From NCBI GenBank assembly GCA_023150555.1, contig JAKLKQ010000029.1, positions 1-64,000 on the forward strand: a stretch of 64,000 nt of DNA, in the 5' to 3' direction. Within the stretch, counting starts at the first letter, position 1, and every line of letters begins with the position of its first letter. Below are positions 5,831 through 17,151 of this stretch, in pieces. The position numbers and the translations under genes are program-made. Below the pieces are notes generated by a model. That model did no database searches and had not been told where the DNA came from. It saw only the letters and a program-made list of their open reading frames with translations. This DNA comes from Planctomycetota bacterium (GTDB taxonomy: Bacteria > Planctomycetota > SZUA-567 > H5-PLA8).

Positions 5831-6067
5831 TCTCTCGGGGGTTCGAGTCCTGTCCAGCGTCCAGCGCCGGGCTAGGCTGTGCACAAACCGAGCCGGCGCA
5901 GGCCGTCTGACTAGTGCTCATGTGCAACTCTATGTATATCAATAGATTGTATAATCCACCTGCGATCCTTTGTGACCCCGAAAGTGGCCGTTTTCCCAGA
6001 ACCTCCAATCGCCGAAAGCAGTCTAAGATTGTACGTAATCAAGAAGTATCTGGCACCCGGAAGAGCG

Positions 6068-7975
6068 ATGCGAACGATCTCGATTTCACGGACCCACGTA
6101 GCCCTTTGCCTAGCGTTCGCCATGTGGGCGGGCGGCTGCCTCCAGGCCGCAGACGGCCCGGTCCTTTTGTGGGCGCAGGAACTCGCCGCCACCGGCAGGA
6201 CCGACGCCCTGAAAAAGCTTGCAGGCAAGGATGGCGCGGGCCTACAGGGCGAGGCGCTCGCCGCAGCCGCCGCCGCAAAGCTGAGCGTGCGCGTCGACTT
6301 CTTCCTCCCCAACGAAAGCGGGCTTCCCGCCGAGCGCTACTTTGCCATCGGGGCCGAGAAGGACCGCCGATTCCCGTGGGAGCGCATCCTGATGGTCGAG
6401 GCCGCGCCGGGGAAGGGGGCCCTGGGCAGCGGGCGCTTCCAGGTGCGCGCCGTCGTCTCGGGCATGCAGCCGCTGATTGACGCGAATGACCCCGCTGCCA
6501 ACACGCTGCCGCTGCGCCTGTACCGCATGTTCTGCAACGACCTCGACGACCCTGAAGACCTGTACGCCACCGCTTTCAAGCACCTCTATGGCGAAGCCAA
6601 GATGGACCACGCCGGCCTGGTGCGCGAGCCCGACGGCCTGCGCGTTGAACTCAAGCGCCTGCCTGGCGGCGCCGGCGGTCCGGCGGTCTTCGTCTCCGAG
6701 CTGCTCGACGTGGCCAAGGACAAGGCCCTGAACCCGGCAGCGCATCCCGCGCCGCCCAGCTTCGCGGCCTTCGACAGCGATGCCTGGTTCGCGCAACAGC
6801 ACAAAGAGGAAGGTGACGAGGAGCCCGACGGCTGGGCCTTTGCGCAAGCGATGAAGAAGGCCGGCTTCGTCAGTGCGGGCTTGGCCCATCCGTGGCCGGC
6901 GCGGTTCTTTCCACTCGAGAGCGCCCCGTACCAGTTCGCGCTGGCGCTGGAGGATCCGCAGGTCCTGAACCTGCGCCACGCCTATGGCGCGTTTGAAGGC
7001 CCGCTGGACGATCGCGTGCGCTCGGTGTTGCGCACGCTGCCCGAAAAGCTGCGCGTCGGCGAGGCGCGCAAGTACATGAAGAACTTGGGCGCCAGCCGCG
7101 TGCTGGGCCGCCCGGTCTGCAACGGCGCGTTCCTGGTGGCAACGGGCGTGCAGAAACTTGTCGCGACGGCCTGGGGCCCGGTGCTCAACGGCGACCGGCG
7201 GTGGCGCTTCGCCGGGCTGGCGCACGTCACCGACGGCTGCATGGACCAAGTGCTGGTGCGCGCGCCCGCGCACGTCTTCCTCTTCAGCGGGCACGGCTAC
7301 ACGACCCGGGTGCAGGGCCTGCCGGTTGCGCTGTTCAACACCTGCGCCAAAACCAACGGCGCGGCCTTCGAGCAGAACTACCTCTACCAGGTCTTCGCGA
7401 CCCCGCGCTTGCCGCGCCCGGGCCACTGGGACGGCATCGACTGCGGCTCGGCGCCGGAGAACTGCATCGAACTGGTGGAGAAGTGGAAGCGCGAGGAGTT
7501 GAACCTTCGCTGGCTGATCGTCGTCGGCTGCCAGAACCTGGACCGCTCGGGCAGCCCCTTCCGCAGTTCGAGCAGCAGCGCGGGTGCCATGGGCGACGCG
7601 GTGATCCACCGCGCTGGCGCAAAGGGCGTGCTGGGTTTCAGCGAGCACGGCTTCAGCGGCGCGTCTTTCATGCGGCGCTTCGTCGAAAAGGGCCAGGAGC
7701 AGTCGGTCGCCGCCACATGGCGCGGTCTCTTTCACGACGACTTCGCCAAGACCTACACCTGGTTCGAACGCAACGAGGAATATGGGCAAAGCCGCCAGTA
7801 CACCTACGCCAACTCGCTTTCCTCGAAGGTCCCGGCCTATTTGGTCCGCCACGAGGCCCTGGCCGAGCGCCTGACCCCCGCCGATGTCGTGCCCGAGGCA
7901 AAGGGCGATACCGTCGAATTCTGCACGGACTTCGCCGGACGCCCCGTTCGCGAGAGTGGCAGCTACTCGCGCTGA
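6068..7975 (+). CDS. Secreted CHAT/caspase-like (clan CD) cysteine peptidase candidate
   Basis: The product is 635 residues long with an N-terminal signal peptide (hydrophobic stretch within residues 8-27); AGGC could act as a weak lipobox, otherwise cleavage near LQAADG is likely. The first 370 residues match nothing I know. The C-terminal part carries the pattern of CHAT/caspase-fold peptidases: HVFLFSGHGYTT with His409, then about 79 residues later LIVVGCQNLDRSG with Cys488 after a hydrophobic strand, then GDAVIHRAGAKGVLGF, which matches the glycine-rich strand after the catalytic Cys in CHAT proteins. Family assignment is by motif only. The ATG at 6068 was chosen over an upstream in-frame ATG (5972) because it begins a clean signal peptide. 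The gene is divergent from the channel gene; the AraC regulator follows after 30 bases. Confidence 0.75.
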   Translation: MRTISISRTHVALCLAFAMWAGGCLQAADGPVLLWAQELAATGRTDALKKLAGKDGAGLQGEALAAAAAAKLSVRVDFFLPNESGLPAERYFAIGAEKDRRFPWERILMVEAAPGKGALGSGRFQVRAVVSGMQPLIDANDPAANTLPLRLYRMFCNDLDDPEDLYATAFKHLYGEAKMDHAGLVREPDGLRVELKRLPGGAGGPAVFVSELLDVAKDKALNPAAHPAPPSFAAFDSDAWFAQQHKEEGDEEPDGWAFAQAMKKAGFVSAGLAHPWPARFFPLESAPYQFALALEDPQVLNLRHAYGAFEGPLDDRVRSVLRTLPEKLRVGEARKYMKNLGASRVLGRPVCNGAFLVATGVQKLVATAWGPVLNGDRRWRFAGLAHVTDGCMDQVLVRAPAHVFLFSGHGYTTRVQGLPVALFNTCAKTNGAAFEQNYLYQVFATPRLPRPGHWDGIDCGSAPENCIELVEKWKREELNLRWLIVVGCQNLDRSGSPFRSSSSSAGAMGDAVIHRAGAKGVLGFSEHGFSGASFMRRFVEKGQEQSVAATWRGLFHDDFAKTYTWFERNEEYGQSRQYTYANSLSSKVPAYLVRHEALAERLTPADVVPEAKGDTVEFCTDFAGRPVRESGSYSR

Positions 7976-8005
7976 TTCCCGCCCGACTGCTATAATGCCC
8001 GCGCC

Positions 8006-8911
8006 ATGGAACATCCGGTCCTGCGCGGCGAATCGTACTTCGACCGCACCAAGCTCTCCCTGGCCGTCATCGAGGCCAAGCACGGCGACCGCCCCGTGCG
8101 CATGCACTCGCACGACTTCATCGAACTGGTCCTCTTCGCGCAGGGCACCAGCCAGCACACCTACGCCGGCAAGCAGTACCGCCTGGCCCCCGGCGACTTG
8201 GTGGTGATTCACCCCGGCGAACCGCACAGCTACGAACACGGCCGCCGCGCGCGCATCTTCAACTGCCTCTTCCTGCCCGAGACCATTGCGCCGGACCTGG
8301 AGTACCTCCGGCGCGTCGACGGATTCTTCGACCTCATCGTCGTCGAGCCCTTCTTCCGCCGCGAGACCGGCCTGCGCGACGTGTTGCACCTCGACCAGGC
8401 CGAACGCCTGCGCGCGCAGGACCTGCTGCGCGAGATGATGCGCGAACTGGAACGCAAGAAACCGGGCTACGAGGCCGCCGCGCGCGCGATGCTGGTGCAG
8501 TTGTTGGTGCTGGCCGCGCGGGCCCACGCCGCGCGCCGCGAGAAGCGAACGGACGGCGAATCGGAGGTCCTGGCCGGCAAGCGTACGCTGATCCGCGACT
8601 GCATCGCCTACATTGAGGAGAACTACGCCGAGGAAATCCGCCTCGAGACCCTCGCCGGGCGCAGCTTCCTGAGCCCCGACCACTTTTCCAAGGTCTTCAA
8701 GCGCCTGACCAAGAAGACGCCCGTCGAGTTCATCAACAGCCTTCGCGTAGACAAGGCCAAGCACCTGCTCGGCACGACCTCGCAAACCGTCACCGAGATC
8801 GCTTTCAAGACCGGCTTCCACGACAGCAACTACTTCGCGCGGCAGTTCAAGAAGATCACCAAGATGACCCCCAAGCAGTACCGCGCTCGTGCCCTGGGTG
8901 GGTACTTCTAA
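8006..8911 (+). CDS. AraC-family transcriptional regulator with N-terminal cupin domain
   Basis: The protein has 301 residues. Residues 20-100 form a cupin sugar-sensing domain of the AraC type (MHSHDFIELVLFAQG and YRLAPGDLVVIHPGEPHSY), and residues 190-298 carry the two helix-turn-helix motifs of AraC/XylS proteins (IRLETLAGRSFLSPDHFSKV and VTEIAFKTGFHDSNYFARQF). Such regulators bind a small sugar-like ligand and activate a neighbouring catabolic operon, which fits the isomerase-oxidoreductase-hydrolase run that starts 200 bases downstream on the same strand. The ligand is not known. No clear Shine-Dalgarno precedes the ATG. Confidence 0.93.
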   Translation: MEHPVLRGESYFDRTKLSLAVIEAKHGDRPVRMHSHDFIELVLFAQGTSQHTYAGKQYRLAPGDLVVIHPGEPHSYEHGRRARIFNCLFLPETIAPDLEYLRRVDGFFDLIVVEPFFRRETGLRDVLHLDQAERLRAQDLLREMMRELERKKPGYEAAARAMLVQLLVLAARAHAARREKRTDGESEVLAGKRTLIRDCIAYIEENYAEEIRLETLAGRSFLSPDHFSKVFKRLTKKTPVEFINSLRVDKAKHLLGTTSQTVTEIAFKTGFHDSNYFARQFKKITKMTPKQYRARALGGYF

Positions 8912-9114
8912 CCCTCCGCGCTCCAACGCTTTCTCTCTCGTTTGAATTACACGCCTTAAAAGTGAAGGCGTATTGGCCTGCACACGTTCATTTCGCCGGA
9001 ATCGTGCTAGCACAAAACCGGTTCCGTCCTATCTCGTGCCCGGGCCGGATGAGTATAAATCCGTGCAATGCAGGAACGGAACCCGCGCACGCTACGGACG
9101 AAAGGAACCGCCCC

Positions 9115-9924
9115 ATGGCTCAGAAACTGAAACTCGGTTGCAGCACCCTCCTTTACGGCGGCCACCTGGTGGAGACCGCGCTCGACGAGATCCGCGACGC
9201 TGGCTACGAAGCGGTGGAACTTTGCTGCATCGGCGGCATGGCCCCGCACTTCTGGCCCAAGCTCACCAAGCAGGCCCTGACCGAGATCAAGAAGAAGATC
9301 GCCGACCGCGGCCTGGTCCTGGAGTCCGTTGGCGCCAGCGGCTGCTGCGGCGACCTGGAGGCCACCAAGGCGGTGCTCGGCGCCGCCGCCACGCTGGGCG
9401 CGCCCTGCGTCACCACCGCCACCGGCGGCAAAAGCGACGACGAGGCCAACTTCAAGGAGATCGTCGAGACCTGGCGCGGCTACGCCAAGGCCGCCTCGGA
9501 AGCCGGGGTCCGCCTGAGCGTCAAGCCGCACGTGCGCTCGGCCGTCTACCACGGGCCGACGACGCTGCGCTTTCTGAAGGAACTCGACACCACCTGGGTC
9601 GGCGTGAACTACGACCCCACGCACATCTACCGCACGCCGAGCAACGAAGACCCCACCACGACGCTGAAGCAGCTGGCGCCGCATGTCCTGACCGCGCGCT
9701 TCCGCGACTGCGCGGGGCGCGAGCTGAACATCGGGCCCGTCGAGAAACAGGTCTGCGGTGAAGGCGTGCTGGACATCAAGGGCTACTTCGCGGCGCTGAA
9801 GGACGTACCGAATCTGAAATACGTCACGCTCGAAATCGTCGGCGCGGTCGGCATGGAACGCGCGCAGGTCCGAAGCGTGCTGGACCGCTGCGCGAAGTAC
9901 GTCAAAGACAACAACCTGCTCTAA
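9115..9924 (+). CDS. Sugar phosphate isomerase/epimerase-like TIM barrel (AP endonuclease 2 family)
   Basis: This 269-residue protein belongs to the xylose isomerase-like TIM-barrel family. It starts with the first barrel strand KLGCSTLLYGG and carries AGYEAVELCCIGGM, then VNYDPTHIYR, a strand supplying metal ligands, and YVTLEIVGAVG near the end. Family members isomerise or epimerise sugars, keto-sugars or inositol derivatives with a divalent metal. The start at 9115 follows a GAAAGGAA element at the usual distance; a longer frame from 8962 has no support. It is the first gene of a tightly packed plus-strand run with oxidoreductases and sulfatase-like hydrolases, so a role in converting a sugar freed or oxidised by its neighbours is likely. 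The substrate is unknown. Confidence 0.88.
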   Translation: MAQKLKLGCSTLLYGGHLVETALDEIRDAGYEAVELCCIGGMAPHFWPKLTKQALTEIKKKIADRGLVLESVGASGCCGDLEATKAVLGAAATLGAPCVTTATGGKSDDEANFKEIVETWRGYAKAASEAGVRLSVKPHVRSAVYHGPTTLRFLKELDTTWVGVNYDPTHIYRTPSNEDPTTTLKQLAPHVLTARFRDCAGRELNIGPVEKQVCGEGVLDIKGYFAALKDVPNLKYVTLEIVGAVGMERAQVRSVLDRCAKYVKDNNLL

Positions 9925-9944
9925 TCGCGAAAGGGAAGACCATC

Positions 9945-10949
9945 ATGGCACTCAAGATCGGCGTGATCGGCTGCGGCGGCATCGGGAACCGGCACAGCAT
10001 CAACTACAAGAGCCTCCCGGGCTCGGAACTCGTCTGCGTCTGCGACATGGACAAGGAACGCGCCGACAAACTCGCCAAGAACCACGGCGTTAAGGCCTAC
10101 TACGACGTCGGCGAGATGCTCAAGAAGGAGAAACTCGACGCCGCCAGCGTCTGCACCGCCGGCGCGGAGAACGGCGGGCACCACTATCAGCCCACGATGC
10201 AGTGTCTCGAGGCCGGGCTGCACGTCCTGTGCGAGAAGCCCATCAGCAACGACATCGAGGAAGGCCGCAAGATGGTCGCGAGGGCGAAGGAGCTCAAGCG
10301 CTGCTTCGGCATCAACCTCAACCACCGCTTCACGCCGCTGACGCAGCGCGCCAAGGGCTGGGTCGTCGAAGGGAAGCTGGGCGAGGGCCTGATCATCAAC
10401 ATGCTGATGTGGATCAACAACAAGAACGACTCGAGCCCCTGGTTCCACGTCAAGGCCCTGCACCCGCACAGCATCGACGTGATGCGCTACTTCGCCGGGC
10501 CCGTCCGCAAGGTGCAGTGCTTCATGATGAAGCCGGCCACGCGCAAGGCCTGCTGGTCGAACCTCTCGATCAACCTGCAGTTCGCCAACGGCATGATCGG
10601 GCACTTGACCGGCAGCTACGACGTCAACCCCGCGCACGGGCTGGAGCGCTGCGAGTTCATCGGCACGAGCGGGCGATTCTACCTCGACAACCTCTTCGAC
10701 CGCCTGACTCTGTTCAACAACGCCAGCGACGAACGCACCGTCATCGAACGCAACATGATGAAGGCGGAAAGTTTCGACGATACGTTCAAGAACCGCATCG
10801 CGCGCTGGGTCGAGCAGCTCAACGAGGGCGCCGACCCGGAGAAGATCGAGGCCAGCGGGCGTGACGGCCTGGGCGCCAGCGAGATCACGCACGCCGCGAT
10901 CGAGTCCTTCGAGAAGGGCACGGTTGTCGACCTGGAGGACCGCGGCTAA
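9945..10949 (+). CDS. Gfo/Idh/MocA-family NAD(P)-dependent oxidoreductase
   Basis: A 334-residue protein with an N-terminal Rossmann fold (GVIGCGGIGNRHSINY, then the acidic end CVCDMD) and the family motif CEKPISND with Lys98. The second half is the mixed alpha/beta substrate domain, with LHPHSIDVMRYFAGP at the active-site His/Asp region. These enzymes oxidise or reduce a hydroxyl of a sugar, sugar acid or inositol with NAD(P). The gene is 20 bases after the isomerase and has a purine-rich GAAAGGGAAG ahead of its ATG. A second, distant paralogue lies three genes on, so the locus may run an oxidation and a reduction around the isomerase. Confidence 0.93.
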   Translation: MALKIGVIGCGGIGNRHSINYKSLPGSELVCVCDMDKERADKLAKNHGVKAYYDVGEMLKKEKLDAASVCTAGAENGGHHYQPTMQCLEAGLHVLCEKPISNDIEEGRKMVARAKELKRCFGINLNHRFTPLTQRAKGWVVEGKLGEGLIINMLMWINNKNDSSPWFHVKALHPHSIDVMRYFAGPVRKVQCFMMKPATRKACWSNLSINLQFANGMIGHLTGSYDVNPAHGLERCEFIGTSGRFYLDNLFDRLTLFNNASDERTVIERNMMKAESFDDTFKNRIARWVEQLNEGADPEKIEASGRDGLGASEITHAAIESFEKGTVVDLEDRG

Positions 10950-10982
10950 GCGCCGCGGAAAGCGAAACGCTAGGCAGACGCC

Positions 10983-12329
10983 ATGAACGTCCTGCTCATC
11001 GCCATCGACACGCTGCGCGCCGATCACCTGGGCTGCTACGGCTACAACAAGCCGACCAGCCCGGCGATCGACGCGCTGGCGGCCGCGGGCGTGCGCGCGG
11101 ACCGCTTCCTGGCGCCGGGCATCCCCACGCATCCGTCGTTCACCACGCTCTTCAGCGGGCAGCATCCCATCCGCCACGGCGTGGTCGCGCACGGCGGCCG
11201 CAACGTGCTGGCCGACCGCACGCCGACCATCCCGCAGCTTTTCAGCGAGAAGGGCTACACCACCGCCAGCTTCGACAACCTGCCGCGCCACCGCTCGTAC
11301 TTCGGGAAGGGCTTCGAGATCCAGGTCGACGCCAGCGTCCGCCGCAAGTGCGACCTGCTCGTCTCGTGCGAGGAGATCAACGCGCGCGTGCTGCCGTTCC
11401 TGAAGCAGATGGGCGAGTCGCGCGAGCCGTTCTTCGCGTTCCTGCACTACTGGGACCCGCACACGCCGTACTGGGCGCCGCCGCGCTACCGCAGCCTCTT
11501 CTACGAAGGCGATCCCTTCGACGCCAAGCAGTCGTCGCTCGCCCCTCTGTACGAGCATCCGTTGGGCAGGCAGTGGAGCGGCACGTGGTTCCAGACGATC
11601 GCGCGCGCGTGGGAACGCGCGCCCGACGCGAAGATCACCGACGCCGCCTACATCTCCGCGCTTTACGACCAGGAGATCCGCCACGTGGACGACGGCGTGG
11701 CCGACGTGCTGGCCGCGCTGGACGCGAACAGACTCGCCGACGATACGCTGGTGCTGCTGGTCGGTGACCACGGCGAGTGTCTGGCCGAACACGCCATCTA
11801 CTTCGACCACCACGGGCTCTACGACGAGAACCTGCACGTTCCGTTCGTCGCGCGCTTCCCCGGCCGCATCCCGGCGGGCCGCGAACTCGGAAGCCTCGTC
11901 CAGCACCTCGACGTGATGCCGACGCTCTGCGAGGCCGCTGGCCTGCGCACGCCGGAGGAGATCGATGGGCGCAGCGCCTGGGGCCTGCTCACCGGCGCGC
12001 GCGATGGCGAGGTGCTCGCCGAACGCATCGTCAGTGAGGAATGCACCTGGCAGATGAAGTGGAGCCTGCGCGATCCGGCGTGGCACTTCATCCTCTCGCG
12101 CGAACGCGACGCCTACGGCAACCCGCTGCGCGAACTCTACGACCTGAAGACCGATCCGGGCCTGACGCGGAACCTTGCGGAGACGAAAGCCGACGTCGCG
12201 CGTGAACTGGAAGGGGAGTTGGAAGGCTGGATCGCCGAGCGCCTGAAGGCCTGTGGGCGCACGCAGGATCCGCTGGTCGAGCACGGCATCACGCTGGGCA
12301 AGCGAAATGAAAAGGGGGAGGCGGCATGA
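10983..12329 (+). CDS. Sulfatase-like hydrolase, alkaline phosphatase superfamily, Thr at the nucleophile position
   Basis: A 448-residue enzyme of the sulfatase/phosphodiesterase branch of the alkaline phosphatase superfamily. Metal-site motifs are AIDTLRADHLGCYGY at the N-terminus (Asp9) and VGDHGECLAEH in the second half, plus HYWDPHTPYWAPP. In true sulfatases the nucleophile is a Cys or Ser in CxPxR that becomes formylglycine. Here the matching site reads PTHPSF, with Thr49 in place of Cys and Phe in place of Arg. That makes a phosphodiesterase, phosphonate hydrolase or phosphotransferase role at least as likely as a sulfatase. It has no signal peptide, so it should act in the cytoplasm. 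It overlaps the next gene by 4 bases (ATGA), showing translational coupling. Confidence 0.88.
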   Translation: MNVLLIAIDTLRADHLGCYGYNKPTSPAIDALAAAGVRADRFLAPGIPTHPSFTTLFSGQHPIRHGVVAHGGRNVLADRTPTIPQLFSEKGYTTASFDNLPRHRSYFGKGFEIQVDASVRRKCDLLVSCEEINARVLPFLKQMGESREPFFAFLHYWDPHTPYWAPPRYRSLFYEGDPFDAKQSSLAPLYEHPLGRQWSGTWFQTIARAWERAPDAKITDAAYISALYDQEIRHVDDGVADVLAALDANRLADDTLVLLVGDHGECLAEHAIYFDHHGLYDENLHVPFVARFPGRIPAGRELGSLVQHLDVMPTLCEAAGLRTPEEIDGRSAWGLLTGARDGEVLAERIVSEECTWQMKWSLRDPAWHFILSRERDAYGNPLRELYDLKTDPGLTRNLAETKADVARELEGELEGWIAERLKACGRTQDPLVEHGITLGKRNEKGEAA

Positions 12330-13369
12330 GCCTGGGCATCGGGATCGTATCCTTCGCGCACGGGCACGTCGGCCTGTACGCCCGAGAGATCGCCAAGATG
12401 GACGATGCGAAGGTCGTCGCCTCCTGGGACGACGACATTGAACGCGGCAGGAAACAGGCCGCGGCGTTCGGCTGCGCTTTCGAGAGCGACCTCGATGCGC
12501 TGCTGGCCCGCGCCGACGTGCAGGCCGTCATGATCGCGAGTGAGACATCCAAGCACGCCGCGCATGCTGTCGCCGCCGCGCGCGCGGGCAAGCACATCCT
12601 GCTGCAGAAGCCCATGGCCATGAACCTGCAGGAGTGCGACGAGATCATCGCCGCGGTCAAGAAAGCCGGCGTGCGCTTCTCGATGGCCTGGCAGATGCGG
12701 TGCGACCCGCAGAACGAATGGATGCGCGAGAAGGTCAAGGCCGGCACGCTGGGCAAGATCACGATGGTGCGCCGCCGCCACGGGCTCCCGACGCAGGCCT
12801 GGGGCGAGGCTTTCGTGAACTCGTGGCACGTCAAACCCGAGCTGAACATCGGCATGTTCTTCGACGATGCCTCGCACGCTGCCGACTGGCTGCAGTGGAC
12901 CTTCGGCAAGCCCGAGAGCGTCACGGCGGAGATCTCCACGGTTTTGAATCCGAAAGTGCCCGACGACAACGGCGTCGCCGTGTACCGGTATGCGAACGGC
13001 ATGATCGCGGCCCTGGAATGCAGCTTCACCTGTCTCGGCGCCGAGGAGTCGACCTTTATCTGCGGCGAGAAGGGCAACATCGTCCAGAAATACGGCGACG
13101 CCCCGTCGGCGAATCTTGAGGCCGCGTCGCGCACGGGCCCCGGGCTGAGATACCTCGAGGCCGGGCAGAAAGCCTGGACCGCCGTCGATATCCCCACGCC
13201 CGCTCAGCACAGCGAGCGTATCGGCGGCGTGGCGAAGCCGGCCGTCGCGTTCCTGTCGGGCAAGGGCCCGGCGATCGCGACCGCCGAGGAAGGCCGGACG
13301 GCCGTGGAGATGGTCCTGGCCGCATACGCGTCGGCGCGCGAAGGGCGCCGCGTTTCATTGAGCAGGTAA
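12326..13369 (+). CDS. Gfo/Idh/MocA-family oxidoreductase, second copy in the cluster
   Basis: A 347-residue paralogue of the enzyme at 9945, but distant. The nucleotide-binding loop is altered (GIVSFAHGHVGLYA in place of GxGxxG), which is known in a subset of this family, and the catalytic motif reads LQKPMAMN with Lys95 kept. The substrate domain has FDDASHAADWLQWTFG at the position of the usual His/Asp pair. The ATG overlaps the stop of the sulfatase-like gene by 4 bases, so both are made together. A partner oxidation or reduction step on the sugar handled by the locus is the simplest reading. Confidence 0.9.
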   Translation: MSLGIGIVSFAHGHVGLYAREIAKMDDAKVVASWDDDIERGRKQAAAFGCAFESDLDALLARADVQAVMIASETSKHAAHAVAAARAGKHILLQKPMAMNLQECDEIIAAVKKAGVRFSMAWQMRCDPQNEWMREKVKAGTLGKITMVRRRHGLPTQAWGEAFVNSWHVKPELNIGMFFDDASHAADWLQWTFGKPESVTAEISTVLNPKVPDDNGVAVYRYANGMIAALECSFTCLGAEESTFICGEKGNIVQKYGDAPSANLEAASRTGPGLRYLEAGQKAWTAVDIPTPAQHSERIGGVAKPAVAFLSGKGPAIATAEEGRTAVEMVLAAYASAREGRRVSLSR

Positions 13370-13398
13370 AACCCCGAACCCGAGGCAAGGAACAGACC

Positions 13399-14919
13399 AT
13401 GGCCAAGAACGTCATCCTCTTCTCGCTGGATACGACCCGTGCAGACCACCTGTCGTGCTACGGGTACCACCGGCCCACGTCGCCGAACCTGGACAAGATC
13501 GCGGCCAAAGGGACGATCTTTGCCGAATGCATCAGCGCGAATATCCCGACGTTCCCCGGGCACATGGCGATGTTCACCGGTACCGACCCGTACTCGCACA
13601 ACCTGACCGGCATGTCCGGGGACAAGTACCAGCCTGCCGAGAACATCAAGATGCTGGCCGAGATCCTGAAGGAAAACGGCTACTGGTGCGGCTGCGCCGA
13701 CAACCTGGGGCGCTGGTTCACGCGCGGCTTCGACCAGGTCGAACGGTACAGCTGGTCCACCGACAAGTCTCAGGTCTGGCGCAAGGGAGAGTCGGTCAAC
13801 ACGGCGGCGCTGAAGGCGCTCGACGGCGCGGCTGGCTCGGGCAAACCCTTCTTCCTCTTCTTCCACTACTGGGACCCGCATACGCCGTATCTGCCGCCGG
13901 AACCTTTCTCGCACATGTTCTACTCGGGCAATGAGAAGGACCCGAAGAACAAGTCGCTGGAGAAGATGTGGAAGTTCGAGCCCTTCAAGGACTACTTCGC
14001 CGAGTGGATGCCCGGCGTCACCGACCGGGACTTCGTCATCGGCCAGTACGATTCGGAGATCGCGTACCTGGACGTCTGCCTCCAGCACGTCTTCACGCGG
14101 CTCGCGCAACTGGGCCTCGCGGACGACACGCTGTTGGTCATCACCGCCGACCACGGCGAGGAGATGGACGAACACGACTGCTGGTTCGACCACCATGGCC
14201 TGTACGACACCAACCTGCACGTTCCGATGATCCTGCACCATCCGGGCGTCGTGCCCGCGGGACAGACCCGCACCGGCCTGGTGACGCTCTACGATGTCGC
14301 GCCGACGATCCTCGATTACGCCGGGCTGGGCGGACTGGCCGCCAAGCACAAGATGCTGGGGCAGTCGCTGCTGCCGTTGGCGCAGGCGAAGAGCCCGATC
14401 TCGCGCGGCACCTGCGATGAGGTCTACCTCAGCGAGAACACCTGGATGCGGAAGCGCGGCGTGCGCACGCACCAATGGAAGTACATTCACGCGCTGGAGC
14501 CCGACTGCCACGGCCTGCCGGAAGAGGAGCTGTACCACCTCACGACGGATCCGGAGGAGAAAGTCAACGTCGCGGCGAAGCGCCCCGAGGTCACGAAGTA
14601 CTTCCGCGAGCGCCTGGATGCGTACGTCGCCAAGCGTGTGAAGGCCACCGGCCGCAAGGACCCGTTCCTCGAGCAGCCCATCCCCATGCACCGCATCGGG
14701 AAGCTTGCCACCGCCGTGCCCAAGGGCAAGGACGAAGCGCCCAAGGCCGCTGCGCCGGCGCCGGAGGCCAAGGCTGCGAAGTCTTCGCGCAATGGGAAGC
14801 CCGCCCAGGCGAAATCTTCGGGCGGCAAGAAGTCCAAGCCTGCTTCGAATGGGAAGGTCAAGTCCGCGTCGCGCATTGGGCGCGGTAAGTCCATCGCCGA
14901 CCCGCTGGACCTGAAGTAG
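13399..14919 (+). CDS. Second sulfatase-like hydrolase with Thr nucleophile position and a Lys/Ala-rich tail
   Basis: A 506-residue paralogue of the enzyme at 10983. It shares SLDTTRADHLSCYGY, HYWDPHTPYLPP and ITADHGEEMDEH. The nucleophile site reads IPTFPGH, again with Thr (Thr51) where sulfatases have Cys or Ser. It differs by a C-terminal extension from about residue 440 that is low in complexity and rich in Lys, Ala, Ser and Gly (for example KSSGGKKSKPASNGKVKS). Such basic tails can bind nucleic acid or acidic polymers, but the role here is not known. No signal peptide is present. The ATG has a purine-rich AAGGAA at suitable spacing and follows the second Gfo/Idh gene by 29 bases. Confidence 0.88.
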   Translation: MAKNVILFSLDTTRADHLSCYGYHRPTSPNLDKIAAKGTIFAECISANIPTFPGHMAMFTGTDPYSHNLTGMSGDKYQPAENIKMLAEILKENGYWCGCADNLGRWFTRGFDQVERYSWSTDKSQVWRKGESVNTAALKALDGAAGSGKPFFLFFHYWDPHTPYLPPEPFSHMFYSGNEKDPKNKSLEKMWKFEPFKDYFAEWMPGVTDRDFVIGQYDSEIAYLDVCLQHVFTRLAQLGLADDTLLVITADHGEEMDEHDCWFDHHGLYDTNLHVPMILHHPGVVPAGQTRTGLVTLYDVAPTILDYAGLGGLAAKHKMLGQSLLPLAQAKSPISRGTCDEVYLSENTWMRKRGVRTHQWKYIHALEPDCHGLPEEELYHLTTDPEEKVNVAAKRPEVTKYFRERLDAYVAKRVKATGRKDPFLEQPIPMHRIGKLATAVPKGKDEAPKAAAPAPEAKAAKSSRNGKPAQAKSSGGKKSKPASNGKVKSASRIGRGKSIADPLDLK

Positions 14920-14932
14920 GAAAGGAGGAGCC

Positions 14933-15670
14933 GTGCTCGAAGCGTTTATCTCGTCCGCCGAGGCTGTGCTGGCGCGCTACGCTGGCACGCACGGCAACCT
15001 GGCCGCCGCGTCGGAGGTGCTCGGCGCCTTGCATGGTGCTGCGCTGAAGGTGCACGGCGTACGGCGCACGGTGGCGGTATCGCCGCGCGTCGTCGCGCTG
15101 GTCGTGCAGGGCGAGCACGCGAAAGGCGAGGCGCGCGTCAACGAGCGAATCTCGCTCACGGCGCGCACTGTGGATGTGGACGTCGGCGGGTTGGACGACA
15201 AAGCCCGCAAGCAACTCGCGAAGGACCTGGAAACGGCGCTGGGTATATTTGCCCCACTAGGCGAGGGTGCGCATGTCTGGGTCGTGCCCGACGGTTACAT
15301 GGCCGCGCTGACGGACGAGGAGAAGCGTTTCGAGCGCGACGGCACGGGGTACTTCTCGCACGAGGCGCTCTGCGTGCAGAACATGGGCTCGAAGGCCACC
15401 CGCTGTGAACTGTTCGTGTACTTCGAGGCGCCCGGCAAAGAGGTTTTGCGGCATGCGTTCGATGTCGAACCTGCGCGCTCGATCCATTTGCGTCTCGACA
15501 AGATCCGCGCCGGCAAAGGCGAGCCGTTCATTCCCAAGAGCGCGCCGGTGGGCTACAAGGTCGTGAGCCTGGACGCGCCCGTCGTCGTGCAGGGATCGAG
15601 AATCCTGACGTCGGGCAAGCAGAGCGAGTTCGCCAGCTTCGGCACCGTGATGGGGTGGACGCCTGAGTAG
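14933..15670 (+). CDS. ASRT-family (sensory rhodopsin transducer-like) domain protein with extra N-terminal domain
   Basis: The C-terminal 130 of 245 residues match the family of the Anabaena sensory rhodopsin transducer (PF07100): VWVVPDGYM, then GYFSHEALCVQNMG, CELFVYFEAPGKEVLRHAF, IHLRLDKI and PVVVQGSRI, in the same order and spacing as I recall for the family. The fold is a beta-sandwich suggested to bind small molecules such as carbohydrates. No rhodopsin gene is in the window, so a sugar-binding or regulatory job inside this locus is more likely than light signalling. Residues 1-105 are an added alpha/beta part (TAEAR-like hydrophobic strands VSPRVVALVVQG) that I do not recognise. Translation starts at GTG 14933 behind a strong GGAAAGGAGGA element, 13 bases after the previous stop. 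Confidence 0.8.
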   Translation: MLEAFISSAEAVLARYAGTHGNLAAASEVLGALHGAALKVHGVRRTVAVSPRVVALVVQGEHAKGEARVNERISLTARTVDVDVGGLDDKARKQLAKDLETALGIFAPLGEGAHVWVVPDGYMAALTDEEKRFERDGTGYFSHEALCVQNMGSKATRCELFVYFEAPGKEVLRHAFDVEPARSIHLRLDKIRAGKGEPFIPKSAPVGYKVVSLDAPVVVQGSRILTSGKQSEFASFGTVMGWTPE

Positions 15671-15683
15671 GGGAAGGGAACCC

Positions 15684-16298
15684 ATGGCCGATCGAGTGCT
15701 CCTAGTCCGAACCAAGCGCGACGGCGCAACGCTGCCACGCTGGGACGCGTTGCGTGCACGCGGGCGCAACGGAAAGCTGAACGCCGGCGCAGCCGAGGAA
15801 GGTAAGATCCCGTCCGCGTTTTTGGTACGCCTTAGTACGAGCAAGTCGGTATTTCGGTCGGCCGGCGTTGAACCGGCCGATTCCGCAAAGCGTGGTGCCA
15901 CGGTTGCGGAAGCGGCCCACCGCACGGCCATGCTGGAGCCGTGGGACGTGCTGGCGATCGACGTGGATCTGTCCGACGCCGCGGAGCGCGCAGCGTTCGA
16001 GGCGAAGGTAGTTCCATTCGTGGAACATCTGATCCCGGGGGTCGCCGTGCTGGCGGTGGAGAGCGGCGCTCACTCGGGCTACACGGCATGGAGTGGGGGA
16101 CTGCCGGCGGGTCCGGGCGCGCTGCCGGATGCGAATGCCGAAGACCTCTGGCCGACCATTCTGAACCTGCTGGGGCTCAATGCGCCGGAGTTGGCCGGCA
16201 GCCCGCTGGAGTTGCAGGCCGCGGCCGTCAGTTCGGACTATGCCGCGGACGAAGAGGCCAAGATCCAGGAGCGCCTGGAAGACCTGGGTTATCTATAA
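15684..16298 (+). CDS. Small protein resembling the C-terminal end of alkaline phosphatase-superfamily enzymes
   Basis: A 204-residue protein, last in the run. From about residue 85 it follows the end of sulfatase/phosphodiesterase proteins: LAIDVDLSD, VLAVESGAHSGYTAW, LWPTILNLLGLNAPELAGSP, and a final DEEAKIQERLEDLGYL, which is a typical last helix of that superfamily. The metal motifs at the front (DTxRAD) and DHG are absent, and ESGAHSG sits where SDHG would be. It therefore looks like a catalytically dead, shortened relative. It might be a partner subunit of the two upstream enzymes or a decaying gene. It has an AGGGGAAGGGA element before its ATG and normal high-G+C codon use, which argues for a live gene. 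Confidence 0.6.
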   Translation: MADRVLLVRTKRDGATLPRWDALRARGRNGKLNAGAAEEGKIPSAFLVRLSTSKSVFRSAGVEPADSAKRGATVAEAAHRTAMLEPWDVLAIDVDLSDAAERAAFEAKVVPFVEHLIPGVAVLAVESGAHSGYTAWSGGLPAGPGALPDANAEDLWPTILNLLGLNAPELAGSPLELQAAAVSSDYAADEEAKIQERLEDLGYL

Positions 16299-16371: not shown

Positions 16372-17151
16372 ATGGACGTTGCGAAACGTATCCGAGATGC
16401 CCTCGCGCAGATCGAGCGCGAGCATAAGGTACGCATCTTCTATGCGTGCGAGTCCGGCAGCCGGGCGTGGGGTTTCGCGTCCCCGGACAGCGACTACGAC
16501 ATCCGATTCCTTTATCTTCATCCGCGTGACTGGTACCTCTCGGTGCGCCTTGAGAAGAAGCGCGACGTCATCGAATTGCCCATCGACGACAGCCTGGACG
16601 TAAACGGCTGGGACCTGCGCAAAGCCCTGCAGCTCTTCCAGAAGTCCAATCCGCCGCTCATGGAGTGGCTGGGTTCGCCGATCGTCTATCTTGAGTCCCG
16701 CGGAGTCGCCGCGGACATGCGCGCACTTGGCGCCAAAGCCTACTCGCCGGCCGCCTGTCACTACCATTACTGGAAGATGGCGAAGGGCAATTTTCGCGAT
16801 TACCTGCAGGGAGAGACCGTCTCCCTCAAGAAGTACCTTTACGTCCTGCGTCCGATCCTGGCCGTGCGCTGGATCGAGCGCGGCTTGTGCGTGGTGCCGA
16901 CGGAGTTCCAGCGGCTGGTCGATGCCGTGGCCGATGCCCCGGGTTTGAAGAAGGAGATCGAGGCCATGCTGGCCCGAAAGGCCGCGGGCGAGGAACTTGC
17001 GCGCGGTCCGAGGATAAATGTGCTCAGCGAGTTTCTGGAATCAGAACTTGATCGCCTTCAGCGCACTTCGTTTGAGAAGAACGAGGAGCCTTGCCCGACG
17101 TCGGAATTGGACCAGCTCTTTCAGAACGCGCTTCAGAAGGTCTGGGCGTAG
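16372..17151 (+). CDS. RlaP/YcgL-type nucleotidyltransferase (polymerase beta superfamily)
   Basis: A 259-residue protein of the RlaP family of predicted RNA-repair-linked nucleotidyltransferases. The active-site signature is ESGSRAWGFASPDSDYDIRF: the GS at 29-30 and the metal-binding pair Asp41/Asp43. Further family marks are ELPIDDSLDVNGWDLRKAL and SVKKYLYVLRP-type sequence (here VSLKKYLYVLRPILAVRWIE). Family members transfer a nucleotide to an unknown acceptor. The gene follows a 73-base gap after the sugar cluster and is convergent with the peptidase gene, with only 3 bases between the stops. Confidence 0.88.
   Translation: MDVAKRIRDALAQIEREHKVRIFYACESGSRAWGFASPDSDYDIRFLYLHPRDWYLSVRLEKKRDVIELPIDDSLDVNGWDLRKALQLFQKSNPPLMEWLGSPIVYLESRGVAADMRALGAKAYSPAACHYHYWKMAKGNFRDYLQGETVSLKKYLYVLRPILAVRWIERGLCVVPTEFQRLVDAVADAPGLKKEIEAMLARKAAGEELARGPRINVLSEFLESELDRLQRTSFEKNEEPCPTSELDQLFQNALQKVWA

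Follow-up and report, generated by a model that had tools for sequence, protein, structure and literature searches.

Operons of Gfo/Idh/MocA oxidoreductases and TIM-barrel enzymes have been shown experimentally to oxidise, eliminate, hydrate, and reduce sugars (PMC7676230; PMC10628242). Here, we describe an eight-gene locus within a 64,000-base window, the first part of one contig of a Planctomycetota metagenome-assembled genome (6.62 Mb, 183 contigs), in which two such oxidoreductases (Gfo1 and Gfo2) and one TIM barrel (TIM) lie with two threonine-nucleophile hydrolases of the AlkP fold, an ASRT fusion protein, and an AlkP-like fragment. The closest known systems are the levoglucosan operon lgdA-lgdB1-lgdB2-lgdC of Bacillus smithii (PMC7676230) and the GlycDH/AtOGE/AtHYD/Gfo operon of Agrobacterium (PMC10628242). 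Both resemble the locus in having oxidoreductases, including the Gfo/Idh type, and TIM-barrel "sugar phosphate isomerases", and the TIM profile of our locus matches AtOGE and a hydratase; neither operon, however, contains a counterpart to the two hydrolases, the ASRT fusion, or the AlkP-like fragment. Myo-inositol catabolism (IolG, IolE) supplies the first- or second-ranked NCBIfam models for Gfo1 and Gfo2 and the top-ranked one for TIM, but the scores fall far under the equivalog cutoffs and the remaining iol set is not in the operon. The initial annotation of this DNA knew of no described pathway with this gene set, and our search of open-access papers likewise found no description; the pathway looks real but undescribed. 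The genes are as follows.

8006..8911, + strand: AraC-family regulator of 301 residues, with a cupin sensor and HTH_18 (Pfam)
9115..9924, + strand: xylose-isomerase-like TIM barrel, IolE-like (TIM; PF01261, 8.9e-20)
9945..10949, + strand: Gfo/Idh/MocA oxidoreductase 1 (Gfo1; PF01408)
10983..12329, + strand: hydrolase 1 (Sulf1), PF00884 fold, Thr nucleophile in T-H-P-S-F, without the formylglycine signature
12326..13369, + strand: Gfo/Idh/MocA oxidoreductase 2 (Gfo2; Pfam), overlapping hydrolase 1 by 4 bp
13399..14919, + strand: hydrolase 2 (Sulf2), PF00884 fold, Thr nucleophile in T-F-P-G-H (Pfam)
14933..15670, + strand: ASRT fusion of 245 residues (ASRTf; PF07100, 2.3e-16)
15684..16298, + strand: AlkP-like fragment of 204 residues (AlkPf), aligned to AlkP proteins by hhalign

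All eight open reading frames (ORFs) are present on the + strand, which confirms the gene content and coordinates first claimed. Pfam supports seven of the eight assignments; a Pfam search with the 204-residue protein gave no match. The conserved start of TIM is the ATG at 9115, the mechanically called ORF opening earlier, at 8962. The tight succession noted initially holds for the seven genes from TIM to AlkPf, where the gaps measure 13 to 33 bp, although there is a single 4-base overlap (hydrolase 1/Gfo2) and not several. A gap of 203 bp parts the AraC gene from this run. On inspection of their sequences, the operon proteins have no hydrophobic leader and look cytoplasmic.

The locus was compared across seven genomes of the same bacterial family, of which G003 and G006 belong to one other genus and G002 to another. 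The order AraC-TIM-Gfo1-Sulf1-Gfo2-Sulf2-ASRTf-AlkPf is identical in G003 and G006. Identity to the window copy is 71-75% for TIM, 62% for Gfo1, 64-65% for Sulf1, 60% for Gfo2, 41-43% for Sulf2, 57-59% for ASRTf, and 32-33% for AlkPf; the AraC relatives at the equivalent place are 64% identical. Relatives of these genes thus do occur together elsewhere, the point on which the initial annotation had staked its proposal. With all eight genes recurring in unchanged order in G003 and G006, the arrangement is more than chance: this is a genuine, conserved operon. The ASRT fusion and the AlkP-like fragment, whose co-occurrence had been singled out as the thing to check, are found together in all three intact copies. 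G002 has a rearranged and partial copy, in which Gfo2, Sulf2, Gfo1, and Sulf1 are followed by the first part of ASRTf, where the contig ends. The genes upstream of the operon vary between the window, G003, and G006. A single-sequence search of genome contigs for the operon gave no match, and an alignment-based search returned three loci, all already known and all in Planctomycetota metagenome-assembled genomes.

The regulator matches PF12833 (1.1e-23) and PF02311 (4.3e-17), the combination of HTH_18 and a cupin-type sensor that marks the AraC/XylS family; its best NCBIfam model is RhaS, at 121 bits against a cutoff of 288. In G006 the AraC gene (L006:4027-4925) is broken across two frames near residue 212, by either an assembly error or a recent frameshift. 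Cross-genome comparison of the region around this gene yielded the following candidate elements.

7991..7996, + strand: TATAAT box preceding the start codon of AraC by 9 nt (found by eye)
8995..9009, + strand: predicted AraC half-site 1, GCCGGAATCGTGCTA
9017..9031, + strand: predicted AraC half-site 2, a direct repeat with a 22-bp period
9054..9059, + strand: -10-like TATAAA of the putative operon promoter, with conserved spacing

Half-site 1 has 14 of 15 bases in common with G006, a value reached by 0 of 200 base shuffles, and is the sole perfect match in its own genome. In the window, G006, and G003, the predicted half-site reads GCCGGAAT(C/T)GTGCTA and is repeated after 22 bp; exactly 22 bp past half-site 2 lies a -10-like box (TATAAA or TTAGAT). 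AraC activators place the -35 element at the end of the adjoining half-site, and the position of the -10-like box means that a -35 element would fall at the end of half-site 2. The proportion of shuffles with an equal repeat was 0.196 for the window, 0.029 for G006, and 0.007 for G003; since the window repeat is weak by itself, the case for the operator rests on the spacing shared by three genomes, two of them from one genus. A scan for sigma-70 promoters reported none, the operator having come from the cross-genome comparison. The 203-bp gap therefore appears to hold a regulated promoter of the seven-gene operon. A TATAAT box is also found by eye 6-9 nt before the AraC ATG in the window, G003, and G006, and is likely araC's own promoter, with a very short leader. 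We considered and rejected a single transcript of all eight genes, given the 203-bp gap with its predicted operator. AraC is probably on its own transcript, so that the operon comprises seven genes; of the AraC-controlled eight-gene locus first proposed, the adjoining regulator with its predicted operator stands. Together, conserved order and conserved operator spacing bear out the claim of a functional gene unit.

Profile searches of 392 Planctomycetota genomes, with G399, G392, and G655 added by later searches, revealed a wider core. The TIM and Gfo2 profiles each matched seven genomes, six of them in common; the probability of this overlap under independent draws is about 1e-11, a figure that is indicative only, the genomes being related. 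TIM matches occur in further Planctomycetota families adjoining Gfo and hydrolase relatives, in the orders Gfo1-TIM-Gfo2-Sulf-Sulf-Gfo1' (G293), Gfo1-TIM-Gfo2-Sulf-sulfotransferase-Gfo1' (G011), Gfo1-TIM-Sulf-sulfotransferase-Gfo1' (G655), and GH31-Gfo1-TIM-Sulf-sulfotransferase-Gfo1' (G038, with Gfo2 on a separate contig); G399 has Gfo1-TIM-Sulf before the contig ends, and G392 has TIM-Sulf only. Outside the Planctomycetota, where spread was judged from plasmid records, the core module is present on a plasmid of Paenibacillus cellulositrophicus (NZ_CP045296.1, 825910-856623). There, a two-component system and a carbohydrate ATP-binding cassette importer are followed by Gfo, TIM, a Thr-type hydrolase, Gfo, adenosine 5'-phosphosulfate (APS) kinase (TIGR00455, 217.9 against a cutoff of 138.7), a second Thr-type hydrolase, AraC, and a Cys-type sulfatase with the motif C-C-P-A-R. 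Its TIM is 61% identical to that of G038 and its Thr-type hydrolase 64% identical to that of G011. TIM is close to a Thr-type hydrolase in all six of these Planctomycetota genomes and in Paenibacillus, and the minimal core pairs a TIM barrel with an adjacent Thr-type hydrolase, in most cases accompanied by Gfo/Idh. The full ASRT fusion was restricted to the window's family among the 392 genomes, and a search of the plasmid records with it gave no match; ASRT and the AlkP fragment are a lineage-specific addition of one family, outside the wider core.

In three Planctomycetota families (G038, G011, and G655), a conserved protein of the PF13469 sulfotransferase family separates the Thr-type hydrolase from a Gfo/Idh gene (L040:6030-6806, L041:4272-5015, and L085:6672-7445), in a position similar to the one that ASRT and the AlkP fragment occupy in the window's family. 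The Paenibacillus hydrolases are annotated simply as "sulfatase", and two of them carry the Thr nucleophile.

The formylglycine position is occupied by Thr in all 14 module hydrolases, as the initial annotation had read it for the two in the window, and the Arg of (C/S)xPxR is replaced by Phe, Tyr, or His (T-x-[PS]-x-[FYH]). Residues D11, T51, D251, H252, and H265/H266 of hydrolase 2 are invariant in 11 aligned hydrolases, and its Asp and His positions would, by analogy, be metal ligands; a Thr nucleophile with conserved Asp and His residues is the pattern of Thr enzymes of the AlkP superfamily. Beyond about residue 430, hydrolase 2 continues into a Lys/Ala-rich tail. Two relatives from the same family that lie outside the module have C-x-P-S-R instead, and a tree separates them from the module hydrolases with a support of 100/100. 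The hydrolases share the PF00884 fold with formylglycine sulfatases (SulfAtlas S1) across most of their length, but have Thr for Cys/Ser and have lost the Arg of (C/S)xPxR, so they lack the S1 nucleophile. We therefore ruled out ordinary sulfatases as their identity, the formylglycine signature being missing. Thr is known as the nucleophile of phosphodiesterases and phosphoethanolamine transferases, and the hydrolases give weak matches to EptA/CptA/LtaS models. According to an earlier paper, Thr replaces the catalytic Cys/Ser in 30 of 59 PF00884 seed proteins, formylglycine formation has never been shown for Thr proteins, and such PF00884 proteins should not be called sulfatases without evidence (PMC5066984).

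The ASRT fusion consists of an N-terminal alpha/beta domain of about 105 residues, modelled with a predicted local distance difference test (pLDDT) score of mostly 75-95, and a C-terminal ASRT domain (residues 112-231). The latter matches TM1070 (1nc7) by sequence (5.4e-11) and by Foldseek (4.1e-6) and keeps the ligand-pocket signature SHEshChhN as SHEALCVQN, and so combines the beta-sandwich and signature that define ASRT/ASRAH domains. Sugar binding by these domains is a prediction, and the intracellular members are described as stand-alone (PMC2739507); the protein described here agrees with them in fold, signature, and sugar-operon context and differs in being fused to an N-terminal domain. 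It thus gains a regulated operon and conserved partners, and a role as an intracellular sugar sensor is offered as a proposal only.

Since the structure model of the 204-residue protein was poor (pLDDT 57) and Foldseek found no significant match, we resorted to profile comparison. Against full-length type I phosphodiesterase-like AlkP proteins encoded within the window's bacterial family, only the last 58 columns align (hhalign 95.9%, E 6.4e-9), compared with 0.2% for an unrelated control protein (TIM). The protein has no conserved metal ligands and no catalytic residues, and it lacks the full fold, catalytic Thr, and metal ligands of PF01663. By sequence, its kinship to AlkP phosphodiesterases is confined to the C-terminal 60 or so residues. 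The label of a dead-looking AlkP relative holds only for this part, which is devoid of metal ligands.

Among solved structures, the TIM family profile matches IolE (3cny, 3.6e-10), the O-glycoside beta-eliminase AtOGE (8bvk, 3.4e-8), and a 2-hydroxy-3-keto-glucal hydratase (8ro4, 1e-3), and the closest relatives of Gfo1 are a dehydrogenase (3ezy), an inositol dehydrogenase (3cea), and DgpA (7xr9). From the observed gene content and order, wider core, active-site residues, and operator spacing, we infer a substrate, reaction steps, and roles for the ASRT fusion and the fragment, and give a probability of roughly 45% to a cytoplasmic, redox-assisted, substrate-induced processing or breakdown of an ester-bearing sugar or cyclitol. 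AraC would bind a sugar-like inducer and activate the promoter in the 203-bp gap, the operator being deduced from its conserved spacing. On the model of the levoglucosan and glycoside beta-eliminase operons, Gfo1 would generate a ketone by oxidising a ring hydroxyl, the IolE-like barrel would isomerise, dehydrate, or beta-eliminate next to this ketone, and Gfo2 would reduce the product. The two Thr-nucleophile metallohydrolases would remove or transfer a charged ester group. The ligand of the ASRT fusion may be either the sugar or a pathway intermediate, the fusion probably tunes one of the operon enzymes, and the AlkP-like fragment would be a non-catalytic partner. Breakdown of a sugar or inositol ester inside the cell, as first suggested, is in keeping with closest families that include inositol and sugar oxidoreductases and with the lack of a hydrophobic leader.

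Several observations weigh against this reading. None of the operon enzymes tested reaches an NCBIfam equivalog cutoff (for the levoglucosan dehydrogenase model, 59-65 against 650 bits), and their kinship to known pathways is therefore a likeness of working, not membership. The elimination pathways of the levoglucosan and Agrobacterium operons use two TIM-barrel enzymes, whereas this operon has two Gfo and one TIM. None of the eight genes encodes a transporter or a glycoside hydrolase. Between the window's family and the distant clusters, identity in TIM is just 32-33%, so the function of TIM may have shifted. The evidence on the ester conflicts: the active-site residues lean to phosphate, as in phosphodiesterases and transferases, and the core neighbours elsewhere to sulfate. 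Of the phospho- or sulfo-ester of a sugar or inositol originally envisaged, these neighbours (APS kinase, sulfotransferase, Cys-type sulfatase, sugar importer, and GH31) point to sulfate and carbohydrate more than to inositol phosphate. Finally, a sulfotransferase using 3'-phosphoadenosine 5'-phosphosulfate (PAPS) in three clusters could mean synthesis, not breakdown.

Indeed, the alternative that survives best, though we consider it unlikely, is synthesis or tailoring, in which the Thr-type enzymes would be sulfo- or phosphotransferases like EptA/LtaS and the Gfo and TIM enzymes would produce a modified sugar destined for a surface glycan or a secondary product. The sulfotransferases of G038, G011, and G655, the Paenibacillus APS kinase, the weak transferase matches, and a Thr nucleophile such as those transferases use all fit it. 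On the other hand, the Paenibacillus copy comes after a sugar importer and includes a Cys-type sulfatase, the AraC regulator with its conserved predicted operator fits substrate induction, and no glycosyltransferase occurs among the annotated or family-scanned cluster genes. We hold it rather improbable that the Thr-type enzymes cut an inositol phosphodiester whose inositol is then processed via inosose by the Gfo/Idh enzymes and the IolE-like TIM. For both Gfo proteins, inositol 2-dehydrogenase ranks first or second among the NCBIfam models, and for TIM the leading model is IolE; IolE is also among the closest solved relatives of TIM, and the Thr nucleophile and a DHG motif fit phosphodiesterases; but the scores are far too low (TIGR04380, 126 bits for Gfo1 and 115 for Gfo2 against 355; TIGR04379, 23 for TIM against 290), Gfo1 is related about equally closely to the glycoside dehydrogenase DgpA and to inositol dehydrogenases, and the core neighbours elsewhere are linked to sulfate and carbohydrate. 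That independent genes adjoin by chance with no shared pathway is very improbable: each family is large and common in Planctomycetota and the order is rearranged in G002, but the eight-gene order is identical across genera at 32-75% protein identity, the wider core recurs in other families and another phylum, and the operator spacing is conserved.

Within the redox-assisted processing that we favour, a bolder and doubtful proposal is that the PF00884 enzymes with a Thr nucleophile would act without formylglycine, as sulfate-ester hydrolases or transferases, on a ring-oxidised sugar, in a PAPS-linked redox-assisted desulfation common to Planctomycetota and Paenibacillus, with ASRT serving one lineage as an intracellular sensor. 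Misannotation of the widespread Thr-type "sulfatases" is routine, and none in the literature searched has an assigned pathway. The cluster places such hydrolases in a compact, conserved setting with named partners and links to PAPS enzymes, which makes their chemistry directly testable.

Around the operon, a 667-residue ORF upstream of AraC (5972-7975 of the window) has no Pfam or NCBIfam match and is not conserved at this position in either G003 or G006. An RlaP (PF10127) nucleotidyltransferase begins 73 bp past the operon (16372-17151); because it is absent from that place in G003 and G006, it is probably unrelated to the operon. A tRNA was the only match in an Rfam search. In other Planctomycetota, stand-alone ASRT genes have as neighbours cytochrome c552 and cytochrome c assembly genes (L045:8549-8977) or an M24 peptidase and an amidohydrolase (L046:6341-6703), and not sugar genes. 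In G006 (L006:12797-15023) and G003 (L007:5077-7142), but not in the window, the operon is followed by an aldo/keto reductase and a protein without assignment.

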